Of a stretch of DNA of 64,000 nt, positions 13,113 through 32,429 are shown one piece after another. Origin of the DNA: Rhizobium sp. NZLR1 (GTDB lineage Bacteria > Pseudomonadota > Alphaproteobacteria > Rhizobiales > Rhizobiaceae); NCBI RefSeq assembly GCF_017357385.1, contig NZ_CP071633.1, forward strand, positions 434,001-498,000, given 5' to 3'. The stretch's first letter is position 1. Each line of letters starts with the position of its first letter. The notes below the pieces were generated by a model that made no database searches, was not told the DNA's origin, and saw only the letters and a list, made by a program, of their open reading frames with translations. A program made the translations under genes and the position numbers.

Positions 13113-16100
13113 ATGTATCGCAACGCTCGCCGGTGGACTTCGCGCTCACTCCTGCTGGATTCGTTGGTTCCCCGATGGTTGACTGTCGGCGGAAAGGAAA
13201 GGCCGCGCAAGCCTGCCGGAAAGCACGGGGACGATGCTCAACTCGCGGCAGAGGTGCAAACGGCGGATGGAAACAAGCAGGCCCCCCTCGTCGGCGATCC
13301 CCATAAGGACGCGGCGCTCAACGAGCATGAGGTTGGGCAGAGCGCGGGCGTGAACGGCGACGCTGACGGTCGGGCCGACGACAGCCTCGTAGCGCCGCCC
13401 TTGCCTGACGCTTTCGCAATCAATCGCGAAATCGGAGAGCGAAGCGGTGATAGAGCCGCGTCCGTATTGTCAGTTCATATGCCGGATTTTGCCCATTTCG
13501 AGGGGAACGCGAACGGAGTTGCATTCGGGGCGGCATCACCCCTTTTACGCACCTACGCTGGGATGAACCTCATAGGCGACGATCCTTTGGCGCCGTATCT
13601 GCCGCAAAGCCCTTCACCGACAGCGTCGAGCCACGGTTCTGCCACCGTCGCTAGCGAGCGTGCACACTCGGGCAAAGTCGTCATTCTGGAATCGACGCCA
13701 ACGGCGCAGACGACCGGGCAGCATGCTGGAGCAAATGCGCTGGCGTTTGGCATGCCCTTTGGTGTGTGCGGGTGCGGCTACTATACGTCCCCCACACGGA
13801 TTCTCGATTGGGCCCATGGCGGCGCCTTGCTTCAGCAAGATGGTCAGTTGCCGGGAACAAGGCTGACCGAAGGACCGGACTATGTGGAGTCGATCAAGAA
13901 GGCCATCGGAGCCTCGGTCAGCGACCCGCTTCTCGATCGTAGCCTGTCTCCTCTCTCGGGCTGGCGCGGAACCGCAAATTGGACAGAATCAACGGCCCTG
14001 AACGGATCATTGCCAGGCGGCGGAGAGACCGGAAAGGGCACCACCACGAAAGGTGTCGGCATCCTTTCCGGCTCGGTGACGACGCCGCCTCAACCTTCTG
14101 CGCAGCGCTCGTTGACGACGCAAAATCTGGCGGCCGCTGCGGCGACGGCCAGCAACGCGATCGTGCTGGAAAACCAGAAGCAGGGTAATCCGGAAAGCGA
14201 GTGGGGCATCGACGGTGCCGGCAGCACCAACATCGAGGGGTTTGCGACTGACATCAGCGTCGACAACGGCAAGACCGTCAGCTTCAAGATCAACACCAAT
14301 TCCACCAACTACCGGATCGATATATACCGGCTCGGCTATTATGGCGGCATGGGCGCGCGCAAGGTTGCGACCATGCAGCACACCGGATTGCAGACCCAGC
14401 CCAATCCGTTGCGCAATGCTACGACCGGCACGGTCGATGCCGGCAACTGGGCAGTCTCCGCCTCGTGGGCGGTACCTGATGATGCCGTCTCGGGCGTCTA
14501 TATCGCCAAGCTCGTGCGCCAGGATGGCACCTCCGGCGAAAATCAGATCCCGTTCATCGTGCGCGACGATGCCAGCCACAGCGACATCGTTTTCCAGACC
14601 GCCGACGAGACCTGGCAGGCATACAACGGCTGGGGTGGTGCAAACTTCTACGGCGGCAACGGTCCGGCGACGGGGCAGGGGGCGGGTCGTGCCTATGCGG
14701 TCAGCTACAACAGGCCGATTGCGACCCGCGGCGGCGTCGGCACCTATGCCGGTCCGCAGGATTACCTGTTCGGCGCCGAATATGCGGGCATCTCCTGGCT
14801 GGAGCAGAACGGCTACGATGTTTCGTACATGTCGGGTGTCGACGCCGACCGTTATGGCAGCCTGTTGCTCAATCACAAGACTTATATCGATGCCGGGCAC
14901 GACGAATACTGGTCGGGACAGCAGAGGACCAATGTCGAAGCCGCACGCGATGCGGGCGTCAATCTGATGTTCTGGAGCGGTAACGAGGTCTACTGGCGCA
15001 CGCGTTGGGGCAATGCCTACAGCGCCGACGGAACGCCTTATCGCACCCTGATCTCCTACAAGGAGACATGGGGACCGCCCGGTACCAGCCTCGACCCTTC
15101 CGACCAATGGACCGGCACCTTCCGCGACCCACGCCTCAGCCCACCTGCTATCGGCGGCGGCAATCCTGAGAACTCGCTAACGGGTCAATTATTCAAGGTC
15201 GACGATGTCGGTAGCAATCTCGGCGCGATCACGGTCGGATATGACGACGCCAATCTGCGCTTCTGGCGCAATACGAGCGTCGCCAATCTCCAGCCTGGCC
15301 AGACGGCAACGCTCACCAAAAACTATCTTGGTTACGAATGGGACGAAGCGCCTGATAACGGCTTCGATCCGGCCGGCCTCGTCAAGCTGTCGTCGACGAC
15401 GCTTCCGGTCAGCTCTTACTTGCTCGACTACGGAAACACGACCGGCAATGCGACCGCGACCCACAATCTGACGCTCTATCGTGCGCCGAGCGGTGCACTG
15501 GTGTTCGGGGCCGGCACAGTCTACTGGACATGGGGCCTGAGCGACAATCACGATAACGAGGCGACCGCAACCGATCCCCGCGTGCAGCAGGCAATGGTGA
15601 ATTTGCTGGCCGACATGGGTATTCAGCCTGGGACGCTGCAATCCGGGCTCGCCGCCGCAACCGGTTCTACGGACCATGTTGCACCGACTTCCGTTATCAC
15701 GGGGCCGTCAGCGGCGACGGTTGGCTCCACAGTCACGATTACAGGTACCGCCACCGATACGGGCGGCGGTGTCATCGCCAGTGTCGAGGTTTCGACCGAC
15801 AATGGCGCGAGCTGGCATCCGGCGACAGGCGATGAGAACTGGACTTATACTTGGTCGCCGCAGGTCGCGGGCAGCTACACGATTCGGTCGCGGGCCGTCG
15901 ACGATAACATCAACCTTGAAACACCCTCGACAGGACGCACGGTCACCGTGACCGGGGCAAGTTTTACCTCTCTCTTTGGCGCGGCGACGCCGGCGGTCGT
16001 CAATACCGACGATACGTCAGCCGTCGAGCTCGGTGTCAAATTCCAGACCTCCGTGGCAGGCACCGTCACCGGTATTCGTTTCTACAAGGGCAGCCTGGAC

Positions 16101-19100
16101 ACCGGTACGCATACAGGCTCACTGTGGTCGAGCACGGGTACGCGGGTTGCGACCCTCACCTTCACAAACGAGACCGCCAGCGGCTGGCAGACTGCCTATT
16201 TTACCAGCCCAGTGAGCCTGACGCCCGGGCAGACCTACACGGCATCCTATCACACCAATACCGGCAATTACTCGACAACCACCGACTACTTCATCGCCAA
16301 TGTGACGAGCGGACCGCTGACGGCGCCAGCCAGCGGCAACGGCGTATACACCTATGGCAGCGCCAGCCTGTATCCGACGAGCACCTTCCAGTCGACGAAC
16401 TATTGGGTCGATGTGATGTTCACGACGCCGAGCTCGAACACGACACCGACGGCAGTTGCCGATGTGGGTAATGCGACCGAGAAGGGCGGGGTGGCCAACG
16501 GTTCGGGCGGCGTGGTTGCTAGCGGCAACGTGCTGACCAACGACACCGATCCGGATGCCGGTGACACCAAGACCGTCACGGCAGTGATCTTTGGTGCGAC
16601 ATCAGGCACGCTCGGCACGGCACTGAGCGGCACCTATGGCAGTCTCGTGCTCAGTGCATCGGGCGCCTATAGTTATGCCGTCAACGAGAGCAATACCGCC
16701 GTCCAGGGGCTGCGCCAGTCGACCAACACGCTGAGCGATGTCTTCAGCTATACGATGCGCGATACCGCCGGCGCGACGGCCACGGCAAGTCTTACCGTCA
16801 CCATCCATGGCGCCAACGATGCGCCGGTGCTGGCCGTCCAGACCGTCGCCCAGAATGCGACCGTGGGCTCGGCCTTCTCCTTCGTGCTGCCGACGACGAC
16901 CTTCACCGATGTCGACAGCGGCGAGACGCTGACCTACTCAGCAACGGCTGCCGATGGCACGGCGCTGCCCGCCTGGCTGAGCTTCAATGCCACGACGCGG
17001 ACTTTTTCCGGCACACCGACGGCATCGGGCACCTATGGCGTCAAGGTGACGGCGACAGATCTTGGCGGCCTTGCCGCCAACGAGAGCTTCAATGTCGCCG
17101 TGTCGACGCCTGGCAATACGCCGCCGACGGCAGTTGCCGATGTGGGTAATGCGACCGAGAAGGGCGGGGTGGCCAACGGTTCGGGCGGCGTGGTTGCTAG
17201 CGGCAACGTGCTGACCAACGACACCGATCCGGATGCCGGTGACACCAAGACCGTCACGGCAGTGATCTTTGGTGCGACATCAGGCACGCTCGGCACGGCA
17301 CTGAGCGGCACCTATGGCAGTCTCGTGCTCAGTGCATCGGGCGCCTATAGTTATGCCGTCAACGAGAGCAATACCGCCGTCCAGGGGCTGCGCCAGTCGA
17401 CCAACACGCTGAGCGATGTCTTCAGCTATACGATGCGCGATACCGCCGGCGCGACGGCCACGGCAAGTCTTACCGTCACCATCCATGGCGCCAACGATGC
17501 GCCGGTGCTGGCCGTCCAGACCGTCGCCCAGAATGCGACCGTGGGCTCGGCCTTCTCCTTCGTGCTGCCGACGACGACCTTCACCGATGTCGACAGCGGC
17601 GAGACGCTGACCTACTCAGCAACGGCTGCCGATGGCACGGCGCTGCCCGCCTGGCTGAGCTTCAATGCCACGACGCGGACTTTTTCCGGCACACCGACGG
17701 CATCGGGCACCTATGGCGTCAAGGTGACGGCGACAGATCTTGGCGGCCTTGCCGCCAACGAGAGCTTCAATGTCGCCGTGTCGACGACGGCAACGACCTA
17801 CAGCCTGTTCTCCGCCTCCAGCACGCCGACCCAGACGAACCTCAACGATGGTCAGCAGCTCGAGCTTGGCGTCAAGTTCCAGTCGAATGTTGCCGGTGAC
17901 GTTACCGGCATCAAGTTCTACCGCAGCGCCAACGACAACGGCCAGAACGTCGTCGACCTGTGGACCACGACGGGCACCAAGCTCGCCACCGCCACCTTCG
18001 CCAGCACCACAGGGAGCGGTTGGCAGACGGTGAACTTCACAACGCCCGTCACCATCGCCGCCAATACCAACTATGTCGCGTCCTACCACACCACCGGAGG
18101 CTACGTGGCAACGGATGCCTTCTTCGCCACTGCCGTCACCAACGGTCCGTTGACGGCCCAAACAAGCGCGGTCGCCGGTGGCAACGGCGTATACACCTAT
18201 GGCGGCTCCGCTACCGCAGGCATTTTCCCGAATGCCACCTTCAACGCCGCCAACTACTATGCCGATGTGGTCTTCCGCCCGGCATCGACAACGCCGAACA
18301 CGACACCGACGGCAGTTGCCGATGCGGGTGATGCGACCGAGAAGGGCGGGGTGGCCAACGGTTCGGGCGGCGTGGTTGCTAGCGGCAACGTGCTGACCAA
18401 CGACACCGATCCGGATGCCGGTGACACCAAGACCGTCACGGCAGTGATCTTTGGTGCGACATCAGGCACGCTCGGCACGGCACTGAGCGGCACCTATGGC
18501 AGTCTCGTGCTCAGTGCATCGGGCGCCTATAGTTATGCCGTCAACGAGAGCAATACCGCCGTCCAGGGGCTGCGCCAGTCGACCAACACGCTGAGCGATG
18601 TCTTCAGCTATACGATGCGCGATACCGCCGGCGCGACGGCCACGGCAAGTCTTACCGTCACCATCCATGGCGCCAACGATGCGCCGGTGCTGGCCGTCCA
18701 GACCGTCGCCCAGAATGCGACCGTGGGCTCGGCCTTCTCCTTCGTGCTGCCGACGACGACCTTCACCGATGTCGACAGCGGCGAGACGCTGACCTACTCA
18801 GCAACGGCTGCCGATGGCACGGCGCTGCCCGCCTGGCTGAGCTTCAATGCCACGACGCGGACTTTTTCCGGCACACCGACGGCATCGGGCACCTATGGCG
18901 TCAAGGTGACGGCGACAGATCTTGGCGGCCTTGCCGCCAACGAGAGCTTCAATGTCGCCGTGTCGACGCCTGGCAATACGCCGCCGACGGCAGTTGCCGA
19001 TGTGGGTAATGCGACCGAGAAGGGCGGGGTGGCCAACGGTTCGGGCGGCGTGGTTGCTAGCGGCAACGTGCTGACCAACGACACCGATCCGGATGCCGGT

Positions 19101-20156
19101 GACACCAAGACCGTCACGGCAGTGATCTTTGGTGCGACATCAGGCACGCTCGGCACGGCACTGAGCGGCACCTATGGCAGTCTCGTGCTCAGTGCATCGG
19201 GCGCCTATAGTTATGCCGTCAACGAGAGCAATACCGCCGTCCAGGGGCTGCGCCAGTCGACCAACACGCTGAGCGATGTCTTCAGCTATACGATGCGCGA
19301 TACCGCCGGCGCGACGGCCACGGCAAGTCTTACCGTCACCATCCATGGCGCCAACGATGCGCCGGTGCTGGCCGTCCAGACCGTCGCCCAGAATGCGACC
19401 GTGGGCTCGGCCTTCTCCTTCGTGCTGCCGACGACGACCTTCACCGATGTCGACAGCGGCGAGACGCTGACCTACTCAGCAACGGCTGCCGATGGCACGG
19501 CGCTGCCCGCCTGGCTGAGCTTCAATGCCACGACGCGGACTTTTTCCGGCACACCGACGGCATCGGGCACCTATGGCGTCAAGGTGACGGCGACAGATCT
19601 TGGCGGCCTTGCCGCCAACGAGAGCTTCAATGTCGCCGTGTCGACGACGGCAACGACCTACAGCCTGTTCTCCGCCTCCAGCACGCCGACCCAGACGAAC
19701 CTCAACGATGGTCAGCAGCTCGAGCTTGGCGTCAAGTTCCAGTCGAATGTTGCCGGTGACGTTACCGGCATCAAGTTCTACCGCAGCGCCAACGACAACG
19801 GCCAGAACGTCGTCGACCTGTGGACCACGACGGGCACCAAGCTCGCCACCGCCACCTTCGCCAGCACCACAGGGAGCGGTTGGCAGACGGTGAACTTCAC
19901 AACGCCCGTCACCATCGCCGCCAATACCAACTATGTCGCGTCCTACCACACCACCGGAGGCTACGTGGCAACGGATGCCTTCTTCGCCACTGCCGTCACC
20001 AACGGTCCGTTGACGGCCCAAACAAGCGCGGTCGCCGGTGGCAACGGTGTCTATGCGTATGGCGGCTCCGCCACCACAGGTCTCTTCCCGACCAACTCAT
20101 ACAATTCGGCGAATTACTATGCCGACGTTGTCTTCCGGCCGCAGCTCGTCGGGTAA
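13113..20156 (+). CDS. giant modular secreted protein: dimethylformamidase-like domain, Ig/VCBS repeats, DUF4082
   Basis: A 2347-residue protein without an N-terminal signal peptide. Residues ~1-345 are a low-complexity, variable leader. Residues ~348-850 resemble the large subunit of N,N-dimethylformamidase (NAIVLENQKQGNP, YRIDIYRLGYYGG, SGNEVYWRTRWG); the metal-site-like GHDEYW motif is at 595-600. An Ig-like domain (~854-948) and a DUF4082 domain (~950-1108) follow, then two blocks, each with two VCBS/putative-Ig units (~225 aa) and one DUF4082 domain: 1109-1727 and 1729-2347. The blocks are identical at DNA level over most of their length. The C-terminus (ADVVFRPQLVG) closely resembles that of the second giant. 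With a type I ABC transporter and HlyD protein downstream, export by type I secretion to the surface or matrix is likely. Enzyme activity is unproven. Confidence 0.85.
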   Translation: MYRNARRWTSRSLLLDSLVPRWLTVGGKERPRKPAGKHGDDAQLAAEVQTADGNKQAPLVGDPHKDAALNEHEVGQSAGVNGDADGRADDSLVAPPLPDAFAINREIGERSGDRAASVLSVHMPDFAHFEGNANGVAFGAASPLLRTYAGMNLIGDDPLAPYLPQSPSPTASSHGSATVASERAHSGKVVILESTPTAQTTGQHAGANALAFGMPFGVCGCGYYTSPTRILDWAHGGALLQQDGQLPGTRLTEGPDYVESIKKAIGASVSDPLLDRSLSPLSGWRGTANWTESTALNGSLPGGGETGKGTTTKGVGILSGSVTTPPQPSAQRSLTTQNLAAAAATASNAIVLENQKQGNPESEWGIDGAGSTNIEGFATDISVDNGKTVSFKINTNSTNYRIDIYRLGYYGGMGARKVATMQHTGLQTQPNPLRNATTGTVDAGNWAVSASWAVPDDAVSGVYIAKLVRQDGTSGENQIPFIVRDDASHSDIVFQTADETWQAYNGWGGANFYGGNGPATGQGAGRAYAVSYNRPIATRGGVGTYAGPQDYLFGAEYAGISWLEQNGYDVSYMSGVDADRYGSLLLNHKTYIDAGHDEYWSGQQRTNVEAARDAGVNLMFWSGNEVYWRTRWGNAYSADGTPYRTLISYKETWGPPGTSLDPSDQWTGTFRDPRLSPPAIGGGNPENSLTGQLFKVDDVGSNLGAITVGYDDANLRFWRNTSVANLQPGQTATLTKNYLGYEWDEAPDNGFDPAGLVKLSSTTLPVSSYLLDYGNTTGNATATHNLTLYRAPSGALVFGAGTVYWTWGLSDNHDNEATATDPRVQQAMVNLLADMGIQPGTLQSGLAAATGSTDHVAPTSVITGPSAATVGSTVTITGTATDTGGGVIASVEVSTDNGASWHPATGDENWTYTWSPQVAGSYTIRSRAVDDNINLETPSTGRTVTVTGASFTSLFGAATPAVVNTDDTSAVELGVKFQTSVAGTVTGIRFYKGSLDTGTHTGSLWSSTGTRVATLTFTNETASGWQTAYFTSPVSLTPGQTYTASYHTNTGNYSTTTDYFIANVTSGPLTAPASGNGVYTYGSASLYPTSTFQSTNYWVDVMFTTPSSNTTPTAVADVGNATEKGGVANGSGGVVASGNVLTNDTDPDAGDTKTVTAVIFGATSGTLGTALSGTYGSLVLSASGAYSYAVNESNTAVQGLRQSTNTLSDVFSYTMRDTAGATATASLTVTIHGANDAPVLAVQTVAQNATVGSAFSFVLPTTTFTDVDSGETLTYSATAADGTALPAWLSFNATTRTFSGTPTASGTYGVKVTATDLGGLAANESFNVAVSTPGNTPPTAVADVGNATEKGGVANGSGGVVASGNVLTNDTDPDAGDTKTVTAVIFGATSGTLGTALSGTYGSLVLSASGAYSYAVNESNTAVQGLRQSTNTLSDVFSYTMRDTAGATATASLTVTIHGANDAPVLAVQTVAQNATVGSAFSFVLPTTTFTDVDSGETLTYSATAADGTALPAWLSFNATTRTFSGTPTASGTYGVKVTATDLGGLAANESFNVAVSTTATTYSLFSASSTPTQTNLNDGQQLELGVKFQSNVAGDVTGIKFYRSANDNGQNVVDLWTTTGTKLATATFASTTGSGWQTVNFTTPVTIAANTNYVASYHTTGGYVATDAFFATAVTNGPLTAQTSAVAGGNGVYTYGGSATAGIFPNATFNAANYYADVVFRPASTTPNTTPTAVADAGDATEKGGVANGSGGVVASGNVLTNDTDPDAGDTKTVTAVIFGATSGTLGTALSGTYGSLVLSASGAYSYAVNESNTAVQGLRQSTNTLSDVFSYTMRDTAGATATASLTVTIHGANDAPVLAVQTVAQNATVGSAFSFVLPTTTFTDVDSGETLTYSATAADGTALPAWLSFNATTRTFSGTPTASGTYGVKVTATDLGGLAANESFNVAVSTPGNTPPTAVADVGNATEKGGVANGSGGVVASGNVLTNDTDPDAGDTKTVTAVIFGATSGTLGTALSGTYGSLVLSASGAYSYAVNESNTAVQGLRQSTNTLSDVFSYTMRDTAGATATASLTVTIHGANDAPVLAVQTVAQNATVGSAFSFVLPTTTFTDVDSGETLTYSATAADGTALPAWLSFNATTRTFSGTPTASGTYGVKVTATDLGGLAANESFNVAVSTTATTYSLFSASSTPTQTNLNDGQQLELGVKFQSNVAGDVTGIKFYRSANDNGQNVVDLWTTTGTKLATATFASTTGSGWQTVNFTTPVTIAANTNYVASYHTTGGYVATDAFFATAVTNGPLTAQTSAVAGGNGVYAYGGSATTGLFPTNSYNSANYYADVVFRPQLVG
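16437..20156 (+). repeat. 1860-bp tandem macro-repeat with nested 678-bp repeats inside the giant gene
   Basis: Units 16437-18296 and 18297-20156 each hold two 678-bp VCBS-Ig modules and one ~504-bp DUF4082 module. Module phases at 16602, 17280, 18462 and 19140 give spacings of 678, 1182 and 678. Large segments appear base-for-base identical; differences gather at the unit edges, for instance after about 20047. This points to recent tandem duplication or continuing gene conversion, and such a region is easily misassembled. Confidence 0.85.
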
Positions 20157-20195
20157 AGCAAAGGACAAGTTTACGAACCGGTTTCGAATGAGGGT

Positions 20196-20307
20196 AGAAC
20201 AGGATGGTTTAGGCTCGGTTGGCCCAAAATCTGAATCCTGTTCTAATTTAAAGAGTTAGAGCATGATGTCATAAGAAGATCGCTCACACTTTTCGGCATC
20301 ATGCTCT
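20196..20307. repeat. RIME-like intergenic repeat, copy B (inverted relative to copy A)
   Basis: The same two palindromes as near 11.1 kb occur in reverse order: 20196-20244 (GAACAGGAT ... ATCCTGTTC) then 20258-20307 (AGAGCATGAT ... ATCATGCTCT). It lies between the first giant gene and the first CobW gene and could act as terminator or mRNA-processing site there. Confidence 0.75.
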
Positions 20308-20368
20308 GATACGACGCAAATGCTGGTCGCGGCGAGAGGCGCTCCGACCCCACATTCGAGGAATGCCG

Positions 20369-21782: not shown

Positions 21783-24700
21783 ATGAACGTCATGCTACAG
21801 CGGGCGAAGAGCCGGCCGATGCGGAAGGGGACGCCGCTGATGCGGAGAATTCATGTGAGTAATCGTGAGTACCTGAGTACATTTGGTGGAGCGTTGAGTA
21901 TCTTTCGTGCATCCTCCGCCTGGAGCGCAGTACTTGCATCCGCGACGGTCGTATCGTCGAGAAGTACCGATGGCTCCCCAAGCTTTGCCAATCAGGGCAG
22001 CGCAACCGTCCAATCCTCCTTCACCGGCACGGTCACATCTTTCATGATATCATCAGGCGACATGCAATCGTCCCCTGCGTCGTCGACGGCGATGCCTGCG
22101 CCTGCTGCCGATGGCGGCGCGCAGGATACGTCCACGAAGACGGCGTCGGCTGCGACGGTCTTCCAGACGCCTTCCTCGACATTGCAACGCACTGTGCTTG
22201 GCCCGGATCCGGCCGAGGAGGCTGCGACACTGCCTGCTGCTCCCGCGCTTACGGGTGTTATCAGCGATGCCGATACCGGCAGCGCCAAAACGGCGCCGGT
22301 CAGTTCTTCCAGCAGTCTTGGCACGGCTTCGTTGCGCCTTCAGGCCTCGATAGCATCCATCTCGGTGGAGCCGAGCCAGGACGTTTCTGCTCAGACGACC
22401 GCGGCCCCGACGGCACTGATGGCATCGATACCGGCAGCTTCGGCTGCGGCGACGCCCAACAAGATCGCGCTCGAAAACCTGAAGCAGGGCAACCCGATCA
22501 GCGAGTGGGGTCTGGAGGGTGACGGCGGCGGCACCATTCAGGGCTTCGCCACCGAAATCAGCACGAATATCGGCCAGACGGTCGATTTCAAGATCGCCAC
22601 CGATTCCACCCATTACCGCATCGATATCTACCGCATGGGCTATTATGGCGGGGCCGGGGCGCGCAAGGTCGACTCGATCGAGCAATCGCTGACCACGGCG
22701 CAGATCCAGCCGCATCCGATCGTCGATATGTCACTCGGCCTCATCGACTGCGGCAACTGGTCGGTCTCGGCGAGCTGGCAGATTCCGACGGACGCGGTCT
22801 CCGGCGTCTATTTCGCCAAGCTGGTGCGCGAGGACGGCACCGCAGACGCCAGCATCATTCCTTTCGTTGTGCGCGACGACGCCTCCACCAGCAATATCGT
22901 CTTCCAGACGTCCGACACGACATGGCAGGCCTATAATGCCTGGGGCGGCGCCAGCCTCTACTATGGCGAAGTGCCCGTCGATCCCGCAAGCATGATCGGC
23001 TACCTGCCACCGAACTGCAGCTGCGGCCTGCAGGCCATCGGCCGGGCCTCGGCGGTCAGCTATAACAGGCCGATCATTACCAATACGAGCCCGATCGGCG
23101 GCTCGCACGACTACATCTTCGGCGCCGAATCCTCCGCCATCTCGTGGCTGGAGCAGAACGGCTACGACGTATCTTATATTTCGGGCGTCGATGCAGCGCG
23201 TAGCGGCAGCCTGCTGCTCAACCACGACGCCTATCTCTCCGTCGGGCATGACGAATACTGGTCTGCCGAACAGCGCGCCAATGTCGAGGCGGCGCGCGAT
23301 GCCGGCGTCAACCTCGCCTTCTGGAGCGGCAACGAGTGCTACTGGAAGGTCCGCTGGGAAAGCAGCATCGACGGCAGCGGCCAGGCCTACCGCACCATGG
23401 TCTGCTACAAGGAAACCTGGGGCACGAGCACGGATCCGAGCAATGTCGGCACCGGCACCTGGCGCGATCCGCGTTATGCCGATGCGGGACAGGAGCCGGA
23501 GAATTCGCTGACGGGCACGATGTTCCAGGTGGACAGCTACCGCTCCGATACGATCTCCATTCCCTACGACTATTCGAACCTGCGCTTCTGGCGCAACACC
23601 GATGTTGCTGAGCTGCAGCAGGGCGAGAGCTACAATCTCGTGCAGAACCTGCTCGGCTACGAATGGGATTCCGATGTCGAGAACGGCTTCCGTCCGGATG
23701 GGCTGATCGACCTGTCACTCTCCTCGGTCTCGGTAAGCACCTATCTGCGCGATTACGGCACGACGGTCGGCGATGCGGTGGCGACCCACAGCCTGACCAT
23801 GTATCGGGCGGCAAGCGGCGCGCTGGTCTTCGGCGCCGGCACAGTCTTCTGGTCCTGGGGGCTGAGTGACAACCATCAGGGCGCGGCGACGTCAACCGAT
23901 CGCAATGTGCAACAGGCGATGGTCAACATGTTCGCGGACATGGGCATTCAGCCGACGACGCTGGATGCGAGCCTGATCCTTGCGACACAATCGACCGACA
24001 CGCTGAAGCCCACCTCGTCGGTCACGTCGCCGATCGTCGGCGCAAGCTTCCTCGAAGGGCAACATGTGACGATCACGGGCACGGCGCAGGATTTCGGCGG
24101 CGGCATCATTGCCGGCGTGGAAGTCTCGACCGATGGCGGCCAGCACTGGTTCAAGGCCACCGGCCGCGAGAGCTGGAGCTATAACTGGGTCGTCCAGGCG
24201 AGCGGAACCTACACGATCATGTCACGGGCCGTCGACGACAGCGTCAATATGGAGGCGTCATCGGCCGGCAAGCAGGTCACCGTCACCTTGCCGGGAACGA
24301 CAGGCCTCTGGACGCTTGCGGAAAAGCCGGCGGTCGAAGTGGCGATCGATCGCGATTCCGTCGAGCTCGGCCTGCGCTTCCAGACGACGACAGCAGGCTC
24401 CGTGGAGGGCATCCGCTTCTACAAGGGCTTCTCCAATATCGGCGACCATGTCGTCAGCCTCTGGAGCGCCAACGGAACGCTGCTGGCATCAGGCGTGTCC
24501 GTCGACGAACCGCTCTCCGGCTGGCAGACGGTGATGTTCTCTTCGCCGATCCAGATTGCCGCCGGCACGACCTACGTGGCCTCCTATCACAGCGGCGGTT
24601 TCTTCTCGCTGACAAACAATTATTTCACCGGCGGCACCTATGCCAGCGGCGCGGTGAAGGCCGTCGATGGCGGCGGCGTCTTCGCCTACGGCACCACTGC

Positions 24701-27128
24701 CGGCACGTTCCCCGGCCAAAGCCCCGGCACCGGCACCAATTACTGGGTCGACGTAGTCTTCGATGCCGGGCCCAACAGCGCCCCGGTTGTGACCGACGAT
24801 ACGGGGCTGACCATCACCCGCAACGACAGCGTCGTCATCTCGATCGCCTCGCTCATCGGAAACGATACGGATCCGAATGGCGATGCGATGACGATTTCGG
24901 CCGTCGGCAATGCCGTCAACGGCACGGTGACGCTCAACAAGCAGAACGGCGCCGTCATCTTCACGCCGACCAACAATTATTCGGGGCCTGCAAGCTTCAC
25001 CTATACGCTGTCGGACGGGCGCGGCGGCACGGATCAGGGCAACGTCAGCCTCACCGTAAACCAGGGCCCTGCCGGGGAAGCACTGTTTACCTCAAGCGAA
25101 GGGCCGACGGGCGCAAGCTTCAACGACGGTCAGTCGCTGGAACTCGGGATGAGGTTCGTCGCTTCGTCCAGCGGCATGATTTCCGGCATCCGCTACTACA
25201 AGGCGGCCGGCGATACCGGCGCCCATACCGGCTCCCTCTGGACGGCCGACGGCACGCTGGTCGCGACCGTCACTTTCGCCGACAGCGGATCGGTGAGCGG
25301 CTGGCAGACCGCGACATTCACCAACCCGGTGCATATCGCAGCCGGCACAACCTATGTCGCCTCCTACCACACGACAGGCTCCTATGTGGCGACATCAGAC
25401 TATTTCACCTCAGCGCATACCAACGGCGCGCTGACGGCGCTTGCCGGCAGTAACGGCGTCTTCGGCAATGGCACGGATTTCCCGACTTCCAGCTACCAGT
25501 CGTCGAACTACTGGGTGGATGTCGTCTTCAACCAGACAACCAATGCGGTGCCGGTCGCCGCCAATGACAATGGCTACACGACCTATTCCAACACCGCACT
25601 TTCGATTGCCGCAGCCAGCCTGCTTGCAAACGACCATGACGCCGATGGCGATCCGCTTAGCATCACCGCCGCGAATGGTGCGGTCAACGGAACCGTGTCG
25701 TTCAACAGCCAGACCAAAACGGTGATCTTCACGCCGAACTCTGGCTATACGGGTTCAGCAAGCTTCTCCTATTCGATCTCGGATGGATATGGCGGCACGT
25801 CGTCGGCCACTGTGAGCCTCGCGGTCAATTCGCAGCCTGGCGGCGGCACGACCGCAAGCCTGTTCACCGGCGCCGACACGTCGGGCGTTACCGCTGCCAA
25901 TGACGCCAACTCGGTCGACCTCGGCGTCAAGTTCATCGCTTCCGCCAGCGGCCAGATCACCGGGCTCACCTATTACAGGAGCGCCCAGGATACCGGCACG
26001 CATGCCGGCTCGCTCTGGACAGCGAGCGGCCAGCTTCTGGCTCAGGCGACCTTCATCAACGAGACGGCGAGCGGCTGGCAGACGGTTTCCTTCATCCAGC
26101 CGATCAATGTGACGGCCGGCGCCACCTATGTGGCGAGCTACCATTCGAACGGCTTCTATTCCGCAACGGCGAACTACTTCACGACGGATCATACGAACGG
26201 TGCGCTGACGGCGCCGTCGAGTGCGGCGAGCGGCGGCAACGGCCTTTATGCCTATGGCTCGGGCAACCTGTTCCCGACCGCTTCCTACAATGCCAGCAAT
26301 TATTGGGTCGACGTGCTCTATCAGCAGGGCGGCGCGCAGAATGCGGTTCCGGTCGCCGCCAATGACAGCGGCTTCTCGACCAATACCGGCACGCCGATCA
26401 CCATCCAGGCCTCCGTGCTCCGGGCAAACGACGCCGATGCCGATGGCGATCCGCTTGTCATCACCGGCGTCAGCGGCGGGGTCAACGGCTCGGTCGCCTA
26501 CGATGCCCAGGCCCAGACGGTGACCTTCACGCCGACGGCAGGCTATTCGGGACCGGCAAGCTTCAGCTACGCGATAGCAGACGGCAAGGGCGGCACGGCG
26601 TCGGCGCAGGTTGCCCTCACCATCAACGGCGGCCAGACGGGAGGGCCGGAGCAGAACCTCTTTGCCGCCGGTGCCACGCCGTCGATCGTCTCCATCAACG
26701 ACAACCAGCAAATCAATCTCGGCATGAAATTCCAGGCCGATACGTCAGGCTGGATCACCGGCGTCCGCTTCTACAAGGGGGCCGACAACACCGGCCCGCA
26801 TAGCGGCTATCTCTGGACCGCCTCGGGCACGCTGCTCGGCAGCGTCACCTTCAACAACGAGACGGCCAGCGGCTGGCAGACTGCGCAGCTCACCCAGCAG
26901 ATCGCGGTCCAGGCGGATACGAGCTATGTCGTTTCTTATTCGAGCAACGGCAATTACTCGGCGACCGGCAATTACTTTGCCAGCGATGTGACGAACGGCG
27001 ATCTCAAGGCGCCCGGCGGCAGCAACGGCGTCTATGCCTACGGGGCGGGCGGGTTGTTCCCGACAGCCAGCTACAACAGCACGAACTACTATGTGGATGT
27101 GGCGTTCAAACCGCAGCTCGCGGCGTAA
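21783..27128 (+). CDS. second giant modular secreted protein: dimethylformamidase-like domain, DUF4082 and cadherin-like repeats
   Basis: A 1781-residue paralogue of the first giant. Residues ~1-220 are a variable, Ser/Ala/Thr-rich leader. A dimethylformamidase-like domain spans ~226-740, with NKIALENLKQGNP at its start and GHDEYW at 488-493. An Ig-like domain (~743-837) follows, then four DUF4082 domains (~840-996, 1100-1251, 1359-1516, 1625-1781) alternate with three cadherin-like/Big_9 modules rich in NDxDxDGDP motifs. Unlike the first giant, its repeats are diverged at the DNA level. The C-terminus VDVAFKPQLAA resembles that of the first giant. The start ATG 21783 has AAAGG eight bases upstream. 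No signal peptide is clear. A shared type I secretion route is inferred from the transporter genes downstream. Confidence 0.85.
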   Translation: MNVMLQRAKSRPMRKGTPLMRRIHVSNREYLSTFGGALSIFRASSAWSAVLASATVVSSRSTDGSPSFANQGSATVQSSFTGTVTSFMISSGDMQSSPASSTAMPAPAADGGAQDTSTKTASAATVFQTPSSTLQRTVLGPDPAEEAATLPAAPALTGVISDADTGSAKTAPVSSSSSLGTASLRLQASIASISVEPSQDVSAQTTAAPTALMASIPAASAAATPNKIALENLKQGNPISEWGLEGDGGGTIQGFATEISTNIGQTVDFKIATDSTHYRIDIYRMGYYGGAGARKVDSIEQSLTTAQIQPHPIVDMSLGLIDCGNWSVSASWQIPTDAVSGVYFAKLVREDGTADASIIPFVVRDDASTSNIVFQTSDTTWQAYNAWGGASLYYGEVPVDPASMIGYLPPNCSCGLQAIGRASAVSYNRPIITNTSPIGGSHDYIFGAESSAISWLEQNGYDVSYISGVDAARSGSLLLNHDAYLSVGHDEYWSAEQRANVEAARDAGVNLAFWSGNECYWKVRWESSIDGSGQAYRTMVCYKETWGTSTDPSNVGTGTWRDPRYADAGQEPENSLTGTMFQVDSYRSDTISIPYDYSNLRFWRNTDVAELQQGESYNLVQNLLGYEWDSDVENGFRPDGLIDLSLSSVSVSTYLRDYGTTVGDAVATHSLTMYRAASGALVFGAGTVFWSWGLSDNHQGAATSTDRNVQQAMVNMFADMGIQPTTLDASLILATQSTDTLKPTSSVTSPIVGASFLEGQHVTITGTAQDFGGGIIAGVEVSTDGGQHWFKATGRESWSYNWVVQASGTYTIMSRAVDDSVNMEASSAGKQVTVTLPGTTGLWTLAEKPAVEVAIDRDSVELGLRFQTTTAGSVEGIRFYKGFSNIGDHVVSLWSANGTLLASGVSVDEPLSGWQTVMFSSPIQIAAGTTYVASYHSGGFFSLTNNYFTGGTYASGAVKAVDGGGVFAYGTTAGTFPGQSPGTGTNYWVDVVFDAGPNSAPVVTDDTGLTITRNDSVVISIASLIGNDTDPNGDAMTISAVGNAVNGTVTLNKQNGAVIFTPTNNYSGPASFTYTLSDGRGGTDQGNVSLTVNQGPAGEALFTSSEGPTGASFNDGQSLELGMRFVASSSGMISGIRYYKAAGDTGAHTGSLWTADGTLVATVTFADSGSVSGWQTATFTNPVHIAAGTTYVASYHTTGSYVATSDYFTSAHTNGALTALAGSNGVFGNGTDFPTSSYQSSNYWVDVVFNQTTNAVPVAANDNGYTTYSNTALSIAAASLLANDHDADGDPLSITAANGAVNGTVSFNSQTKTVIFTPNSGYTGSASFSYSISDGYGGTSSATVSLAVNSQPGGGTTASLFTGADTSGVTAANDANSVDLGVKFIASASGQITGLTYYRSAQDTGTHAGSLWTASGQLLAQATFINETASGWQTVSFIQPINVTAGATYVASYHSNGFYSATANYFTTDHTNGALTAPSSAASGGNGLYAYGSGNLFPTASYNASNYWVDVLYQQGGAQNAVPVAANDSGFSTNTGTPITIQASVLRANDADADGDPLVITGVSGGVNGSVAYDAQAQTVTFTPTAGYSGPASFSYAIADGKGGTASAQVALTINGGQTGGPEQNLFAAGATPSIVSINDNQQINLGMKFQADTSGWITGVRFYKGADNTGPHSGYLWTASGTLLGSVTFNNETASGWQTAQLTQQIAVQADTSYVVSYSSNGNYSATGNYFASDVTNGDLKAPGGSNGVYAYGAGGLFPTASYNSTNYYVDVAFKPQLAA

Positions 27129-27177
27129 AGCCCGCGAGGATGCAAGGCCAAGCATGCTGTAAAGAGTGAGAGTTTCG

Positions 27178-28410
27178 ATGATGAGTGCAGACAACAGATT
27201 GCCCGTAACGGTTCTCGCCGGGTTTCTCGGCGCCGGCAAGACGACTGTGCTCAATCATGTCCTGAGTAATCGGGAGGGTCGCCGGGTTGCTGTCATCGTC
27301 AACGATATGAGCGAGGTCAATATCGATGCGGATCTCGTGCGCGAGGGCGGTGCAGACCTCTCGCGCACCGACGAGACGCTGGTAGAGCTTACCAACGGGT
27401 GCATCTGCTGCACCCTGCGCGACGATCTTCTGAGCGAAGTGCGCCGGCTCGCAGCCGCCGGCCGTTTCGACTATCTGCTGATCGAGGGAACCGGCATTGC
27501 CGAGCCGCTGCCGGTCGCAGCCACCTTCTCCTTCCGCGACGAGAGCGGGGCTGCCCTCTGCGACGTGGCGCGTCTCGACGCGATGGTCTGCGTCGTCGAT
27601 GCGGTCAATCTTCTCACCGATTACCAGAGCGCCGAATTCCTTGCCGATCGCGGCGAAAGGCGTGACGGGGACGATGAGCGCAAGCTCGTGGACCTGCTCG
27701 TCGAGCAGATCGAATTTTCCGATGTCGTCATCATCAACAAGGCAGGCGATGTGCCGTGCGCCGACCTTGCCGAGGTTCGCCGGGTCGTCGCGGCGCTCAA
27801 TCCGGATGCCCAGGTCGTCGAGGCGGTTTTTGGCCAGGTGCCGCTTGGCGCGATCCTGGATACCGGCCTCTTCAGCGAAGCGAAGGCCGCCCGCCATCCG
27901 CTCTGGCACAAGGAACTTTTCGGTTGGGGCGATCATGTGCCGGAGACCGAGGAATACGGCATAACAAGCTTCGTCTATCGCAGTCGCCGGCCCTTCGATC
28001 CCCTGAGGCTCAAGGATTTCCTCGACCGGAAATGGGCGGGCCTCATCCGCGCAAAGGGCCATTTCTGGCTGGCGACGAGGCCGGACGAGATCGGCCTTCT
28101 GTCAATTGCCGGCACCCAGTGCCGCATCGAGACCAGGGGGTACTGGTGGGCCTCGGTGCCGCGGGTGCAATGGCCGCGCTTTCCGCAGTTCCGCCAGCTC
28201 ATCGACCGGCATTGGGACGATGTCTGGGGCGATCGCCGCCAGGAGCTCGTCTTCATCGGTTCCGGCTTCGACGAGGAAGCGATCCGTGCTGCGCTCGGCG
28301 ATTGCCTGACCGGCGAGGAGACGGGTTTCGATCCGCAAACCGCCGTCGGCCTCCGCGATCCGTTTCCGGCATGGCAGCACGGACATATCCTCGCACATTC
28401 AAATAGTTAG
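27178..28410 (+). CDS. CobW/COG0523-family GTPase (putative metallochaperone), copy 2
   Basis: A 410-residue paralogue of the first CobW gene, with the same motif set: [10 protein letters not shown]75-I-C77-C78, [26 protein letters not shown], and the CobW C-terminal domain ending in DPFPAWQHG. The start used is ATG 27178 ([12 protein letters not shown]); a GTG 12 bases earlier is in frame but lacks better spacing. The gene starts 49 bases after the second giant and is followed by the small protein and the secretion genes. The repeated order giant-CobW, giant-CobW argues that each pair was duplicated as a unit and that the partners are functionally linked. Confidence 0.85.
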
Positions 28411-28478
28411 AAGTGTCATGATGGGCGTAAGACGGCCTAGTGTGAAGACGTTTTGATTACCAACCAGAGGAGAGAACA

Positions 28479-28787
28479 ATGAGTGACGAACTTTATGCAG
28501 ATGGCATCGGCGAAATCACCATTACCGGAACGATCGTGCGCATCGACCTGATGTCGCTTTCGGCAACCGATCGTGACGCCAACAACAACCCGAAGCCGGT
28601 CTTCCGTCAGCGCATCATCATGCCTGTCGATGCCTTCGCCAATGCGGTCGACCTCATGCAAAAGGCGCTCGGCGGGTTGGTCGAGGCGGGCGCGGTCCGT
28701 CGCATCGGCGATATGTCAGCTGCGGCGGCTGCCGATATCCAGTCGGTACAGCCCGGCGCTTCGAACGCTTCGCCGAACTTCAACTGA
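28479..28787 (+). CDS. small protein of unknown function upstream of the secretion genes
   Basis: A 102-residue acidic/neutral protein with an excellent ribosome-binding site (AGAGGAGAG, then ATG). It reads as a small beta-rich domain (GEITITGTIVRIDLMSLSAT) followed by a predicted helix (AFANAVDLMQKALGGLVEAG). The pattern weakly resembles DUF3467-type proteins, but I cannot assign it. It has no signal peptide or membrane segment. Its position, 68 bases after the second CobW gene and 43 before the ABC transporter, suggests a cytoplasmic accessory factor such as a secretion chaperone or subunit of the export system. Confidence 0.75.
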   Translation: MSDELYADGIGEITITGTIVRIDLMSLSATDRDANNNPKPVFRQRIIMPVDAFANAVDLMQKALGGLVEAGAVRRIGDMSAAAAADIQSVQPGASNASPNFN

Positions 28788-28830
28788 TAAAACAAATAGT
28801 GACTGGGTCTCGTATTGTTTCGGGTGGGCC

Positions 28831-30975
28831 ATGAGTGGTTTTCTGCATACCAACCTGCACTGTCTAGCGCTCGTCGCGCGTCATCACGGCGTCGATCTCG
28901 CGCCTGAGCGATTGCAGCACGACTATGCCGTCGGCAACGATCCCGTTGCCGTGCGGCAGCTGCTGCGCATGGCCAAGGATGCCGGCCTCAGAGCCCGGCA
29001 TCTGACGCTCGGCTGGCGATCCCTGTTTCAGCTCGGCGAAGCCTTTCCGGTGATCGCGGAACTGACGAACGGCAACTGGGTGGTCATCGCCGGCGCCGTC
29101 GGGGAGGGTGAGGAGGAGAGAATTCGCGTTCTTGACCCGCTCGCGTCACGCGCCGAAGTGATGATGCTCAGCGAAGAGCAGTTCGCCAAGGCCTGGCTCG
29201 GATCGGTGATCCTACTGAAGCGCAACTATCGCATGTCCGACGAGGACCGGCCCTTCGGATTTCGCTGGTTCGTGCCCGAGATCATCAAGCAGCGTAGCTT
29301 CTTCCGCGATGTCGCGCTCGCCGCCTTCGTGCTCTACGGGCTGGGCCTGACGACGCCGATCTTCTTCCAGCTTGTCATCGACAAGGTGCTGGTGCACCAG
29401 AGCTATGCGACGCTGACGGTTCTGACTATCGGTATTGCTATCGCGCTCGTCTTCGACGCGACCTTCAGCTTCCTGCGCCGCTATCTGCTGCTCTACGCGA
29501 CGAACAGGATCGACATCCGCGTCGCGACACGCACCTTCGGCCATCTGCTCAACCTGCCGATCGCACTTTTCGAGCAGGCCTCGGCCGGCGTTCTCGTCAA
29601 GCATATGCAGCAGACGGGGCGCATCCGCGAATTCCTGACGGGGCGCCTGTTCCTGACGCTTCTCGACGGCGTTTCGCTCTTCGTCTTCGTGCCGATCCTG
29701 CTTCTCTACAGCGTCAAGCTGACGCTTGTGGTGCTCGGTTTCGCAGCGCTCGTCGGCCTCGTGGTGATGATGCTCGTCGGGCCGTTCCAGCGCCGGTTGC
29801 AGGCGCTTTACCAGGCCGAAGGCGACCGGCAGGCATTACTGGTGGAAACCGTGCACGGCATGCGCACCGTCAAATCGCTGGCACTGGAGCCGCGCCAGCG
29901 CAAGGCGTGGGACGATTATTCGGCCCAGTCGATCTCCGTGCGTTTCCGGGTCGACAAGATTTCGACCATCGCCCAGTCGCTGACCGGGCTTCTGGAGAAG
30001 CTGATGAGTGTCGCGATCATCGGCCTCGGCGCGCTCGATGTGTTTAACGGCTCGATGACCATCGGTGCGCTGGTCGCCTTCAACATGCTCGCCGGCCGGG
30101 TCTCCGGACCGCTGGTGCAGATCGTCACCATGGTGCACGAATATCAGGAAGTGGCGCTCTCCGTGCGCATGCTCGGCGAGATCATGAACCAGCGGCCGGA
30201 GCAGGCGGGCCGCGGGCGAGGTGTTCGGCCGCATCTGAAGGGCCGCATCGAATTCGACAGGGTCACCTTCCGCTATGCGCCTGATAGTGCGCCTGCGCTC
30301 GACAATGTCTCATTCGCCATTCCGGCGGGCTGCGTCTTCGGCGTGGTCGGCAAGAGCGGGTCGGGCAAGACGACGATCACAAGGCTCATCCAGGGGCTTT
30401 ATCAGAGCCAGGAAGGCCTCGTGCGCATGGATGGCTATGACAGCCGCGAGATCGACCTGGTGCACTTAAGAACCAGCATCGGCGTGGTGCTCCAGGATAG
30501 TTTCCTGTTTCGCGGCTCGGTTCGCGAGAATATCGCCGCCGCCAAGCCCGATGCCAGCATCGAGGAGATCATGGAAGCCGCCCGCATCGCCGGCGCCGAG
30601 GAGTTCATCGAGCGTCTGCCGCGCGGTTTCGACACCATGCTGGAAGAAAACGCCGCCAACCTGTCGGGCGGCCAGAAGCAGCGCCTGGCGATTGCCCGCG
30701 CGCTGATCACCGATCCGAAGCTGTTGATCTTCGATGAGGCGACGAGCGCGCTCGACCCTGACAGCGAGGCGATCATCCGCGACAACCTCAGCCGCATCGC
30801 CGCCGGCCGGACCGTGGTCATCGTCTCGCACCGGCTTTCGACGCTCGTCGATGCCGATGCCATTCTCGTCATCGATCGCGGCAAGGTCGCCGATATCGGC
30901 CGGCACGATCAGCTCGTGTCGCGCTGCATGACCTACCGCCACCTGTGGTCCCAACAAATGAGGCAGGTCGCATGA
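28831..30975 (+). CDS. type I secretion ABC transporter (HlyB/PrtD-like, with inactive C39-like domain)
   Basis: A 714-residue ABC exporter. Residues ~1-125 form a C39-like domain: HCLALVARHHGVD aligns with the second half of the peptidase motif, and the DCG catalytic cysteine is absent, so it should bind substrate and not cleave a leader. A six-helix membrane domain (~150-440) and an ATPase domain follow, with Walker A GKSGSGKTT (~506), signature LSGGQKQR (~611) and Walker B LLIFDEATSALD. The ATG at 28831 is used; an in-frame extension would overlap the small gene. The ATGA overlap with the HlyD-type gene shows co-translation. It is the obvious exporter for the two giant proteins; the TolC-like partner is not in the window. 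Confidence 0.85.
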   Translation: MSGFLHTNLHCLALVARHHGVDLAPERLQHDYAVGNDPVAVRQLLRMAKDAGLRARHLTLGWRSLFQLGEAFPVIAELTNGNWVVIAGAVGEGEEERIRVLDPLASRAEVMMLSEEQFAKAWLGSVILLKRNYRMSDEDRPFGFRWFVPEIIKQRSFFRDVALAAFVLYGLGLTTPIFFQLVIDKVLVHQSYATLTVLTIGIAIALVFDATFSFLRRYLLLYATNRIDIRVATRTFGHLLNLPIALFEQASAGVLVKHMQQTGRIREFLTGRLFLTLLDGVSLFVFVPILLLYSVKLTLVVLGFAALVGLVVMMLVGPFQRRLQALYQAEGDRQALLVETVHGMRTVKSLALEPRQRKAWDDYSAQSISVRFRVDKISTIAQSLTGLLEKLMSVAIIGLGALDVFNGSMTIGALVAFNMLAGRVSGPLVQIVTMVHEYQEVALSVRMLGEIMNQRPEQAGRGRGVRPHLKGRIEFDRVTFRYAPDSAPALDNVSFAIPAGCVFGVVGKSGSGKTTITRLIQGLYQSQEGLVRMDGYDSREIDLVHLRTSIGVVLQDSFLFRGSVRENIAAAKPDASIEEIMEAARIAGAEEFIERLPRGFDTMLEENAANLSGGQKQRLAIARALITDPKLLIFDEATSALDPDSEAIIRDNLSRIAAGRTVVIVSHRLSTLVDADAILVIDRGKVADIGRHDQLVSRCMTYRHLWSQQMRQVA

Positions 30976-32429
30976 ACGCGCACGCCAGAAAATCCAGCGA
31001 AAACCTGCCGGTTCCTTCAGACAAAGGCTCCACAGGCCAAGGCCTCTCAGACAAGGGCCCCTCAGACACGGGAAGGCAACTGACTGCCCGGCCGCCGCTG
31101 CCGCCGGCAATAGCGGAATTTCAGTCCGATGCCGTCGAGCTCGAGGAGCGCGCGCCGCCGCGGGTGGCGCGCATGACGCTCTACTGCGTGACGGCGCTGC
31201 TTGCCTCAGCGATCACCTGGGCCTCGGTTTCCTCCATCGACGAGGTGGTGATTGCGCCCGGCAAGCTCGTCACCACCCAGCCGACCATCGTCGTCCAGCC
31301 GCTCGAAACATCGATCATCCGCACGATCGAGGTGAAGGCCGGCGAGGTGGTGCATGCCGGGCAGACGCTGGCGACCCTCGATGCCACTTTCAGCCAGGCC
31401 GATGTCGACCAGCAGCAGGCGAAATTCTCCGCACTCGACGCTCAGGTGAGACGCATCGAGGCCGAGCTTGCCGGCGTCGACTATACGAAGATGGCGGGAG
31501 ATACGCCCGACCAGATACTGCAGTCGCAGCTCTTCGGCCAGCGACAGGCCTTCTACGCGGCGCAGCTGCAGAATTTCGAGCAGCAAATCGCCGGCCAGTC
31601 GGCGTCGCTCACCGCCAGCAAGAACCAGGAAGCGGTGTTGACCCAAAGGCGCGATGGGCTCTCGCAGATCGAGGCAGCGCGGGAGCGGCTTTATAACACA
31701 CAGAGCGGCTCGCTGATCACGCTGCTCGGCTCCCGCGACGCCCGCCTCGACGTCGAATCCGATCTGACCGCCGTCCGCGGCCGGGCCGACGAGGCCGCCC
31801 ACTCGTATGCCAAGCTCCGAGCCGACCGCCAGGCCTTCATCGAGGATTTCCGCCGCGCTGCAATGGAGCAGCTGGTGGAGCTGCGCGGCCAGCGCGACAT
31901 GGCTGACGAGGAACTGAAAAAGATGGAGCTGCGCCGCAATATGGTGGCGCTGACCGCACCCGCCGATGCCGTCGTGCTCGACCTGGCGCAACGCTCGGTC
32001 GGCTCCGTCGTGCGCGAGGCCGAACCGGTGGTGACGCTGGTGCCGATCAACGTGCCGCTCGAAGCCGAAGTCTCGATCAACACCCGCGACATCGGCCGTG
32101 TCGCCGTCGGCAAGGAAGCGCGTATCAAGCTCGACGCCTATCCCTTCCAGAAATACGGCACCGCCTCGGGCGAGGTGAGAACCATCAGCCAGGACACGTT
32201 CCTCACCGGCCAACAGGAACAGAGCGCCACCCCCGGCCAGCCGGCCGCCCCCTTCTTCAAGGCCCGGATACTGCTTGCCGATACAAGGCTGAATGCCGCA
32301 GATGTGCCGGTGCGGCTGCTTCCCGGCATGACCGTATCCACGGAAATCAAGGTCGGCAACCGCACGGTGATCTCCTATTTTCTGTATCCGTTGCTGCGTG
32401 GCCTCGATAACGCAATACGCGAACCGTAG
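30972..32429 (+). CDS. HlyD-family membrane fusion protein of type I secretion
   Basis: A 485-residue adaptor. The Pro/Ser/Gly-rich cytoplasmic N-terminus is followed by one membrane segment (MTLYCVTALLASAITWASVSS, split at about residue 75), the lipoyl-like half motif (VVIAPGKLVTTQPTIVVQPL), a long periplasmic coiled coil (~150-330), the returning half motif (MVALTAPADAVVLDLA) and a beta-barrel domain ending in GMTVSTEIKVGNRTVISYFLYPLLRG. That C-terminal pattern is standard for HlyD/PrtE proteins. The start ATG 30972 overlaps the ABC gene stop as ATGA. It should bridge the ABC exporter to an outer-membrane TolC channel encoded elsewhere. Confidence 0.88.
   Translation: MNAHARKSSENLPVPSDKGSTGQGLSDKGPSDTGRQLTARPPLPPAIAEFQSDAVELEERAPPRVARMTLYCVTALLASAITWASVSSIDEVVIAPGKLVTTQPTIVVQPLETSIIRTIEVKAGEVVHAGQTLATLDATFSQADVDQQQAKFSALDAQVRRIEAELAGVDYTKMAGDTPDQILQSQLFGQRQAFYAAQLQNFEQQIAGQSASLTASKNQEAVLTQRRDGLSQIEAARERLYNTQSGSLITLLGSRDARLDVESDLTAVRGRADEAAHSYAKLRADRQAFIEDFRRAAMEQLVELRGQRDMADEELKKMELRRNMVALTAPADAVVLDLAQRSVGSVVREAEPVVTLVPINVPLEAEVSINTRDIGRVAVGKEARIKLDAYPFQKYGTASGEVRTISQDTFLTGQQEQSATPGQPAAPFFKARILLADTRLNAADVPVRLLPGMTVSTEIKVGNRTVISYFLYPLLRGLDNAIREP

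Follow-up and report, generated by a model that had tools for sequence, protein, structure and literature searches.

Giant proteins with a dimethylformamidase-like head and a Cys-x-Cys motif as candidate clients of COG0523 GTPases in a rhizobial type I secretion operon

A locus encoding an ATP-binding cassette (ABC) exporter and two large proteins has been reported in Rhizobium leguminosarum bv. viciae strain 3841, now R. johnstonii, as pRL90159, pRL90161 and bltDE (Krehenbrink and Downie 2008, PMC2275737). In the available portions of that paper BltDE is presented as a likely bacteriocin-type exporter and the two large proteins as carrying a repeat of ∼140 amino acids, a description that recurs in the accessible part of a 2024 review (PMC10925705). 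Here we analyse the same locus in a window of 64,000 nucleotides from Rhizobium sp. NZLR1 (RefSeq assembly GCF_017357385.1, contig NZ_CP071633.1, positions 434,001 to 498,000 of the forward strand; coordinates count from the first letter of the window). Its genes all lie on the + strand in the order giant protein G1, GTPase CobW1, giant protein G2, GTPase CobW2, a small protein of 102 amino acids, an ABC exporter and an HlyD-type adaptor, precisely as a first-pass annotation of the DNA had stated, with intergenic gaps of 206, 229, 37, 68 and 43 bp and then an overlap of the ABC and HlyD genes. The two giants are likewise upstream of ABC and HlyD in strain 3841 (locus L112 of our set). The head fold and cysteine motifs described below go unmentioned in the available portions of the 2008 account, and neither 'cobw' nor pRL90160, pRL90162 or pRL90163 occurs in the text of PMC2275737. 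The first-pass remark that no such system had been described thus holds in part: the exporter and the giants are in print as bltDE, pRL90159 and pRL90161, whereas no paper on the pairing of giants with GTPases was found in the literature searched, which was mostly without subscription papers and without supplements. As far as the accessible parts of two further papers go, RL4362, which encodes a CobW protein and has been tied to root attachment, is not one of the genes treated here and is listed beside dacC (PMC11406972), and a DUF4082 protein of Methylococcus is mentioned solely as a table entry among predicted secreted proteins (PMC4257694).

The separate parts of the locus have other described counterparts. 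For the head of the giants the closest systems, judging by the accessible part of the literature, are the dimethylformamidase (DMFase) of Paracoccus (6lvb; PMC7686228) and N-acetyl-(R)-beta-phenylalanine acylase (8huy). Unlike the Paracoccus enzyme, the head here is part of a giant protein adjoining an exporter, and the 102-amino-acid protein has no significant sequence match in the Protein Data Bank (PDB). Adhesins of the BapA/LapF type, which leave the cell through type I systems, resemble the giants in their VCBS and cadherin-like repeats, their size and their neighbouring exporter, but the giants have an enzyme-like head and a GTPase partner and no RTX repeats were found in them (no match of the GGxGxD nonapeptide type in G1 and G2); the NCBIfam adhesin model was missed, with 129 bits against a cut-off of 180. 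The closest family to CobW1 and CobW2 is that of the ZigA and znu-linked zinc GTPases, which share Walker A and CxCC motifs with them and reach 63–64% identity in the same genome; CobW1 and CobW2 differ in falling under the model cut-off, in lacking a Zur-like box and in being tied to giants and not to zinc uptake. A likeness of another kind is offered by Nha3, a COG0523 protein found in clusters only with Fe-type nitrile hydratase, an enzyme with the metal motif CSLCSC. The available portion of the source proposes that Nha3 inserts iron or shuts out other metals (PMC2770081). In both cases a COG0523 gene is tied to one amide-chemistry enzyme with a Cys-x-Cys metal motif, but the client here would be a repeat-stalk giant encoded beside a type I exporter, and there are two giants, each with a GTPase. 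Nitrile hydratase is cytosolic, and its fold is unrelated to that of the giants' head.

Two-cysteine motifs and the adjoining GTPases

To our knowledge, COG0523 GTPases occur widely, and for the majority no client has been described. Among the giants examined here, the near-constant presence of a GTPase gene beside those with a two-cysteine motif suggests that the GTPase serves the motif, and the balance of the sequence evidence tips slightly towards each giant being the client of its own COG0523 GTPase, through a Cys-x-Cys (CxC) site, within a type I secretion operon. Relatives of the G2 head in named genomes were kept as loci for the best 80 of at least 555 matches, so that this set is skewed to close kin; together with further genomes and plasmids, the scored set holds 145 heads in 171 loci, 130 of which contain a head. 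Some contigs entered twice, and row counts therefore exceed distinct counts. A CobW gene lies within 2.5 kb downstream of 100 of the 105 heads with a CxC insert, and three others are cut off by the end of the sequence. Where more than 6 kb of downstream sequence was available, the CxC-head giant was followed by CobW, small protein, ABC and HlyD in 91 of 96 rows (74 of 79 distinct heads), a degree of conservation that excludes a chance arrangement. The giant–CobW pairing proposed in the first pass is thus real and widespread, as is the neighbouring export machine, and the co-occurrence of giant and CobW genes extends well outside this locus. By comparison, no CobW reached E 1e-6 in the 14–20 kb read at 40 control loci, which were chosen from a longer list and encode short-frame PF20254 proteins of the same bacterial family.

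The CxC occurs at two different places, an N-terminal region in G1 and an insert in the head of G2, and the same GTPase rule holds at both. G1 has only two cysteines in its 2347 residues, both within FGVCGCGYYT. Its relatives with an adjoining GTPase keep CGCGY[FY], except L273, and no further cysteine follows from the motif to the end of the available sequence in 22 of 22 motif rows (L140 and L143 end at contig ends). Among distinct scorable heads, CxC and GTPase were found together in 101 of 102 (101 of 103 with L087), whereas in heads without CxC the GTPase was absent in 14 and broken in one. The latter is L273, in which the motif reads WGCG, its first cysteine lost, and the GTPase pieces (15544-16544) correspond to residues 158–342 and a short end in two frames. 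In L133, L139 and L271, which have no GTPase, CCGxCGYxNCP stands at the place homologous to CGCGYF; as a four-cysteine alternative it might bind metal unaided.

These counts depend on a few assignments. Eight distinct heads with too little flanking sequence were set aside, among them L087 (CxC, no GTPase in 6.8 kb downstream), which lacked upstream sequence. A strict C.CG pattern missed L091, L097, L103/L129, L137 and L138, in which the next residue is not glycine, and a broader pattern counted them as CxC. L141 was counted as GTPase-positive despite a split gene, and L120, without CxC, as GTPase-negative, its nearest GTPase being 4.0 kb upstream in a G2 cassette. Three short head envelopes (L272, L278 and L280, all Micrococcaceae without GTPase) were dropped. 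The giant/GTPase pair was also found without this exporter nearby, and in both gene orders; L082, where the ABC gene is in two open reading frames (ORFs), was not counted as such a pair. The GTPase therefore tracks the CxC more closely than it tracks the exporter, which makes the giant its likely client.

The locus ranges over Rhizobium, Sinorhizobium/Ensifer, Mesorhizobium, Aminobacter, Kaistia, Bosea and Lutibaculum, with one genome (L264) from another order of the class. Farther afield it is seldom met: a wider search at E 1e-60 found the head in 3 of 385 genomes drawn from the class and 9 of 398 from the phylum, the window's own genome included. The head in the window is 99% identical to that of L032, from R. 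phaseoli.

The head, the exporter and a proposed route

The head matches the PF20254 family profile and is predicted to have a DMFase-like fold; a first model from 14 sequences was poor (predicted local distance difference test, pLDDT, 43) and was discarded. DMFase iron ligands Y399 and E521 and catalytic H519 and N547 align with head residues that, in head numbering, are Y144, E251 and H249 in 111 of 111 heads and N277 in 110 of 111. The DMFase-like head thus probably keeps a metal site. The dimethylformamidase fold differs from the amidohydrolase superfamily, so that the 'amidohydrolase-like head' of the first-pass annotation needs a new label, even though a metalloenzyme-type site is probable.

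The ABC protein contains PF03412, PF00664 and PF00005 domains and scored 681 bits with TIGR01846, missing the cut-off of 725.55, and the HlyD adaptor scored 313.9 bits with TIGR01843, above its cut-off of 208.65. In 101 of 101 aligned rows the C39-like domain has threonine at the position of the catalytic cysteine, as placed by what we take to be the C39 motif register; this is expected of an HlyB-type exporter and not of a leader-cleaving one. Where the locus has an exporter, 98 of 114 rows of non-actinobacterial giants have PQ[LIS] followed by one or two residues at the C terminus, whereas none of six actinobacterial giants does, and two of these six, those of L272 and L275, have an apparent N-terminal Sec signal. 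The giants are putative substrates of the ABC/HlyD exporter, for which the conserved tail is indirect evidence.

A mechanism covering the client relation, the metal, the order of events, the export route and the activity of the head can be proposed as follows. The locus would be a type I secretion operon whose substrates are giants with a DMFase-fold head on a repeat stalk. Each giant would have its own GTPase, a relative of the ZigA-like protein of the zinc locus but without Zur boxes, which would most probably act in the cytosol on the CxC of that giant. There, by analogy with the model for Nha3, it may either load a metal or keep metals off until export. The exporter would then move the giant out by its C-terminal end, and outside the cell the head may work as an amide-cleaving or ligand-binding metalloprotein. 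The first-pass idea that the CobW partners supply metal agrees with this insofar as the GTPase goes together with a motif of the giant that may bind metal; its part on zinc scarcity fared differently, as described below. A tentative and rather doubtful extension is that secretion is gated, the GTPase recognizing CxC(G), inserting or withholding metal in the cytosol and so deciding whether the giant leaves the cell as an active metalloenzyme of its surface. This motif would have arisen at two places, each gaining such a GTPase neighbour, and the CxC of G2 may replace the lost tyrosine iron ligand. If true, the client relation would connect the insertion of metal with type I secretion, a route believed to carry proteins in the unfolded state, and would suggest a possible function for a little-studied giant pair of many rhizobia. 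A COG0523 client is thereby put forward on sequence grounds, with a motif of two residues, in a root symbiont amenable to genetics.

Weighing the client relation against other explanations

Several observations weigh against a client relation of this kind. Two giants, L087 and L132, have the CxC and no CobW gene despite enough sequence, and in L141 an intact CxC accompanies a GTPase gene (8136-9418) whose pieces lie in two frames. L139, L268 and L277 have the exporter but neither the GTPase nor the CxC. The active-site residues are unchanged in heads without GTPase (L004, L024, L030 and the giants of L114, L133 and L139), and the DMFase-type site therefore does not in general depend on the GTPase. 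No tyrosine of the heads aligns with the DMFase iron ligand Y440, in contrast to the Paracoccus enzyme, and a CxC insert or a gap stands there; the invariant Tyr153 (head numbering) is a possible substitute. Of 17 non-actinobacterial rows whose locus lacks an exporter, 13 have the PQ[LIS] tail as well, and with their best NCBIfam model, ZigA (NF038288), CobW1 and CobW2 scored 564.1 and 565.9 bits and missed the cut-off of 600. Type I substrates usually cross the membrane unfolded, which argues against loading the head before export and favours keeping the CxC free or loading a small local site. In strain 3841 the supernatant proteins of a bltD mutant were unchanged, according to a statement, with data not shown, in the available part of the paper (PMC2275737). 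Most scored rows are moreover close kin. The head tree has two changes of the CxC and three of the GTPase, from which just two independent contrasts can be drawn; both point the same way (sign test p 0.5). The CxC–GTPase association is striking, and it rests on few independent events.

Giant and GTPase could instead serve metal homeostasis in parallel, the giant scavenging, releasing or detoxifying metal outside while the GTPase handles it inside, with a shared purpose and no contact. Giants outside the lineage give this idea some weight, since they lie in copper/heavy-metal clusters in all six Micrococcaceae plasmid loci read, of nine records, and on one Methylobacterium plasmid, whereas control stretches from three of those plasmids had a transition-metal transporter in one of six cases (potassium transport uncounted). 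The loci concerned are L272, L275, L276, L278, L279, L280 and L271, from Arthrobacter, Paenarthrobacter and Methylobacterium plasmids, and in L275 and L279 the giant directly follows multicopper oxidase and ZIP genes. However, just 7 of 130 giant loci had metal-transport relatives, none of these seven had the GTPase, and the 41 other loci had no such relatives. The search used ten queries from these same loci plus znuA and so leans towards them; one of the ten (PATP1) was a wrong-frame fragment, and another P-type ATPase query was also used. The actinobacterial loci form one close family, and because few lineages are involved and plasmids are rich in such genes, the metal-cluster link is a lead. 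Parallel homeostasis also leaves unexplained why the GTPase follows the CxC at two places and why each giant has a GTPase when there is a single exporter, and we regard it as unlikely.

The pairing might also reflect synteny passed on by descent, giant and GTPase having little to do with each other functionally, as the phylogenetic clustering and the mere two independent contrasts would allow. This becomes very unlikely given that the pair is retained in either gene order and where this exporter is not close by, and that motif and GTPase are both damaged in L273.

Slimmer still is the prospect that the GTPase gene answers to zinc starvation and that the operon belongs to the zinc response. CobW1 and CobW2 have the CobW domains and the Walker A and CxCC motifs of COG0523/G3E proteins, their best model is ZigA, and the znuA gene of this genome is immediately followed by one for a COG0523 protein that is 64% and 63% identical to them, respectively. 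Such a znu-linked gene is present in 16 of 21 znuA regions (partial in L237). A Zur-like box, GTTATN3ATAAC with at most one mismatch, which was derived here from the znuA regions and not from experiment, was found in 20 of these 21 regions, often with a second copy near the start of the znu COG0523 gene. By contrast, with the same tolerance there was none in the window and none before the operon genes in 79 G2, 12 G1, 75 CobW2 and 20 CobW1 regions. As far as the box shows, the giant-linked GTPases are therefore outside the usual zinc control, and the first-pass suggestion that they act when metal is scarce was, for zinc, not borne out by this sequence test. In the GTPase tree the znu-linked copies form one clade (support 97/94) and the G1-linked copies another (100/99), which joins Rhizobium with Bradyrhizobium sp. 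195 and kindred genomes, although the gene is downstream of G1 in Rhizobium and upstream in L265-L267. Two distant paralogues used as outgroup had very long branches and do not place the giant-linked copies relative to the znu-linked ones. CobW1 as a recent copy of CobW2 is disfavoured, as it groups with G1-linked GTPases of other genomes. Finally, export of a bacteriocin-like toxin, proposed in 2008 when the ABC protein was found closest to SunT-type exporters (PMC2275737, available portions), is hardly credible given the threonine in the C39-like domain, the HlyB-type best NCBIfam model (TIGR01846) and adhesin-like giants with a DMFase-fold head.

Features of the locus and its surroundings

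Coordinates of the operon, of selected residues and of one neighbouring gene within the window
Feature	Position	Strand	Remarks
Giant G1, 2347 amino acids	13113..20156	+	N-terminal CGCGY motif, DMFase-like head, VCBS/He_PIG repeats, three DUF4082, C-terminal FRPQLVG
G1 CxC, Cys219-Gly-Cys221 in FGVCGCGYYT	13767..13775	+	DNA coordinates derived from residue numbers
G1 head, DMFA2_C PF20254, residues 401-814	14313..15554	+	Pfam match
CobW1, COG0523 GTPase, 396 amino acids	20363..21553	+	PF02492 and PF07683; Walker motif; clade of G1-linked CobWs
Giant G2, 1781 amino acids	21783..27128	+	DMFase-like head with CxC insert, C-terminal FKPQLAA
G2 domains	21783..27128	+	DMFA2_C, sulfite-oxidase-type Ig domain, cadherin-like repeats, four DUF4082
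G2 Tyr384	22932..22934	+	Aligned with DMFase iron ligand Y399
G2 CxC insert, Cys412-Ser-Cys414 in PPNCSCG	23016..23024	+	Loop aligned with DMFase Y440
G2 His489 and Glu491	23247..23255	+	Aligned with DMFase H519 and iron ligand E521
G2 Asn517	23331..23333	+	Aligned with DMFase N547
G2 Glu627 (GYEWD), probable match to DMFase E657	23661..23663	+	Acylase alignment and spacing only
CobW2, COG0523 GTPase, 414 amino acids	27166..28410	+	CobW domains; Walker motif
Small protein, 102 amino acids	28479..28787	+	Without Pfam/NCBIfam family; conserved in operon
HlyB-type ABC exporter, 714 amino acids, degenerate C39-like domain	28831..30975	+	BltD in R. leguminosarum 3841
HlyD-type membrane fusion protein, BltE	30972..32429 (ORF also open from 30945)	+	Profile match
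Polysaccharide-export-like protein, divergent upstream neighbour	11224..12684	-	Profile matches

The ABC ORF was listed as 28573-30975, with a GTG start that falls within the small gene; the ATG at 28831, which agrees with the R. johnstonii annotation, is the likely start. The 102-amino-acid protein has 422 homologues and no Pfam match at E up to 10, nor any NCBIfam match. In the GTPase-less loci L268, L271, L277, L087 and L132 it is encoded directly behind the giant. It was considered as a DMFase small subunit and rejected, as no DMFase chain was matched and the sole PDB hit, at E 0.4, was an unrelated protein. One fusion-like hit (P0102) places the small protein behind a CobW_C match, possibly a frame artefact on a short contig.

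No internal stops were found in G1 or G2, and Tandem Repeats Finder (TRF) detected no tandem arrays in the giants. By blastn, G1 DNA from 16435 to 20141 contains near-identical repeats, with 680-bp units of ∼99% identity and an 1850-bp duplication of 98.5%. The length of G1-type giants differs widely among relatives, which together with these repeats suggests recent expansion or assembly trouble. Between G1 and CobW1, the stretch 20240-20310 is inverted-repeat-like and presumably akin to the RIME elements of rhizobia.

Polysaccharide genes lie upstream of the operon. The middle part of the 11224-12684 product resembles an HlyD-type adaptor (TIGR01843, E 1e-12), and in L078 and L082 a similar protein is encoded directly after HlyD. 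Downstream of the operon region, 36493-37743 encodes an MgtC/DUF4010 membrane protein.

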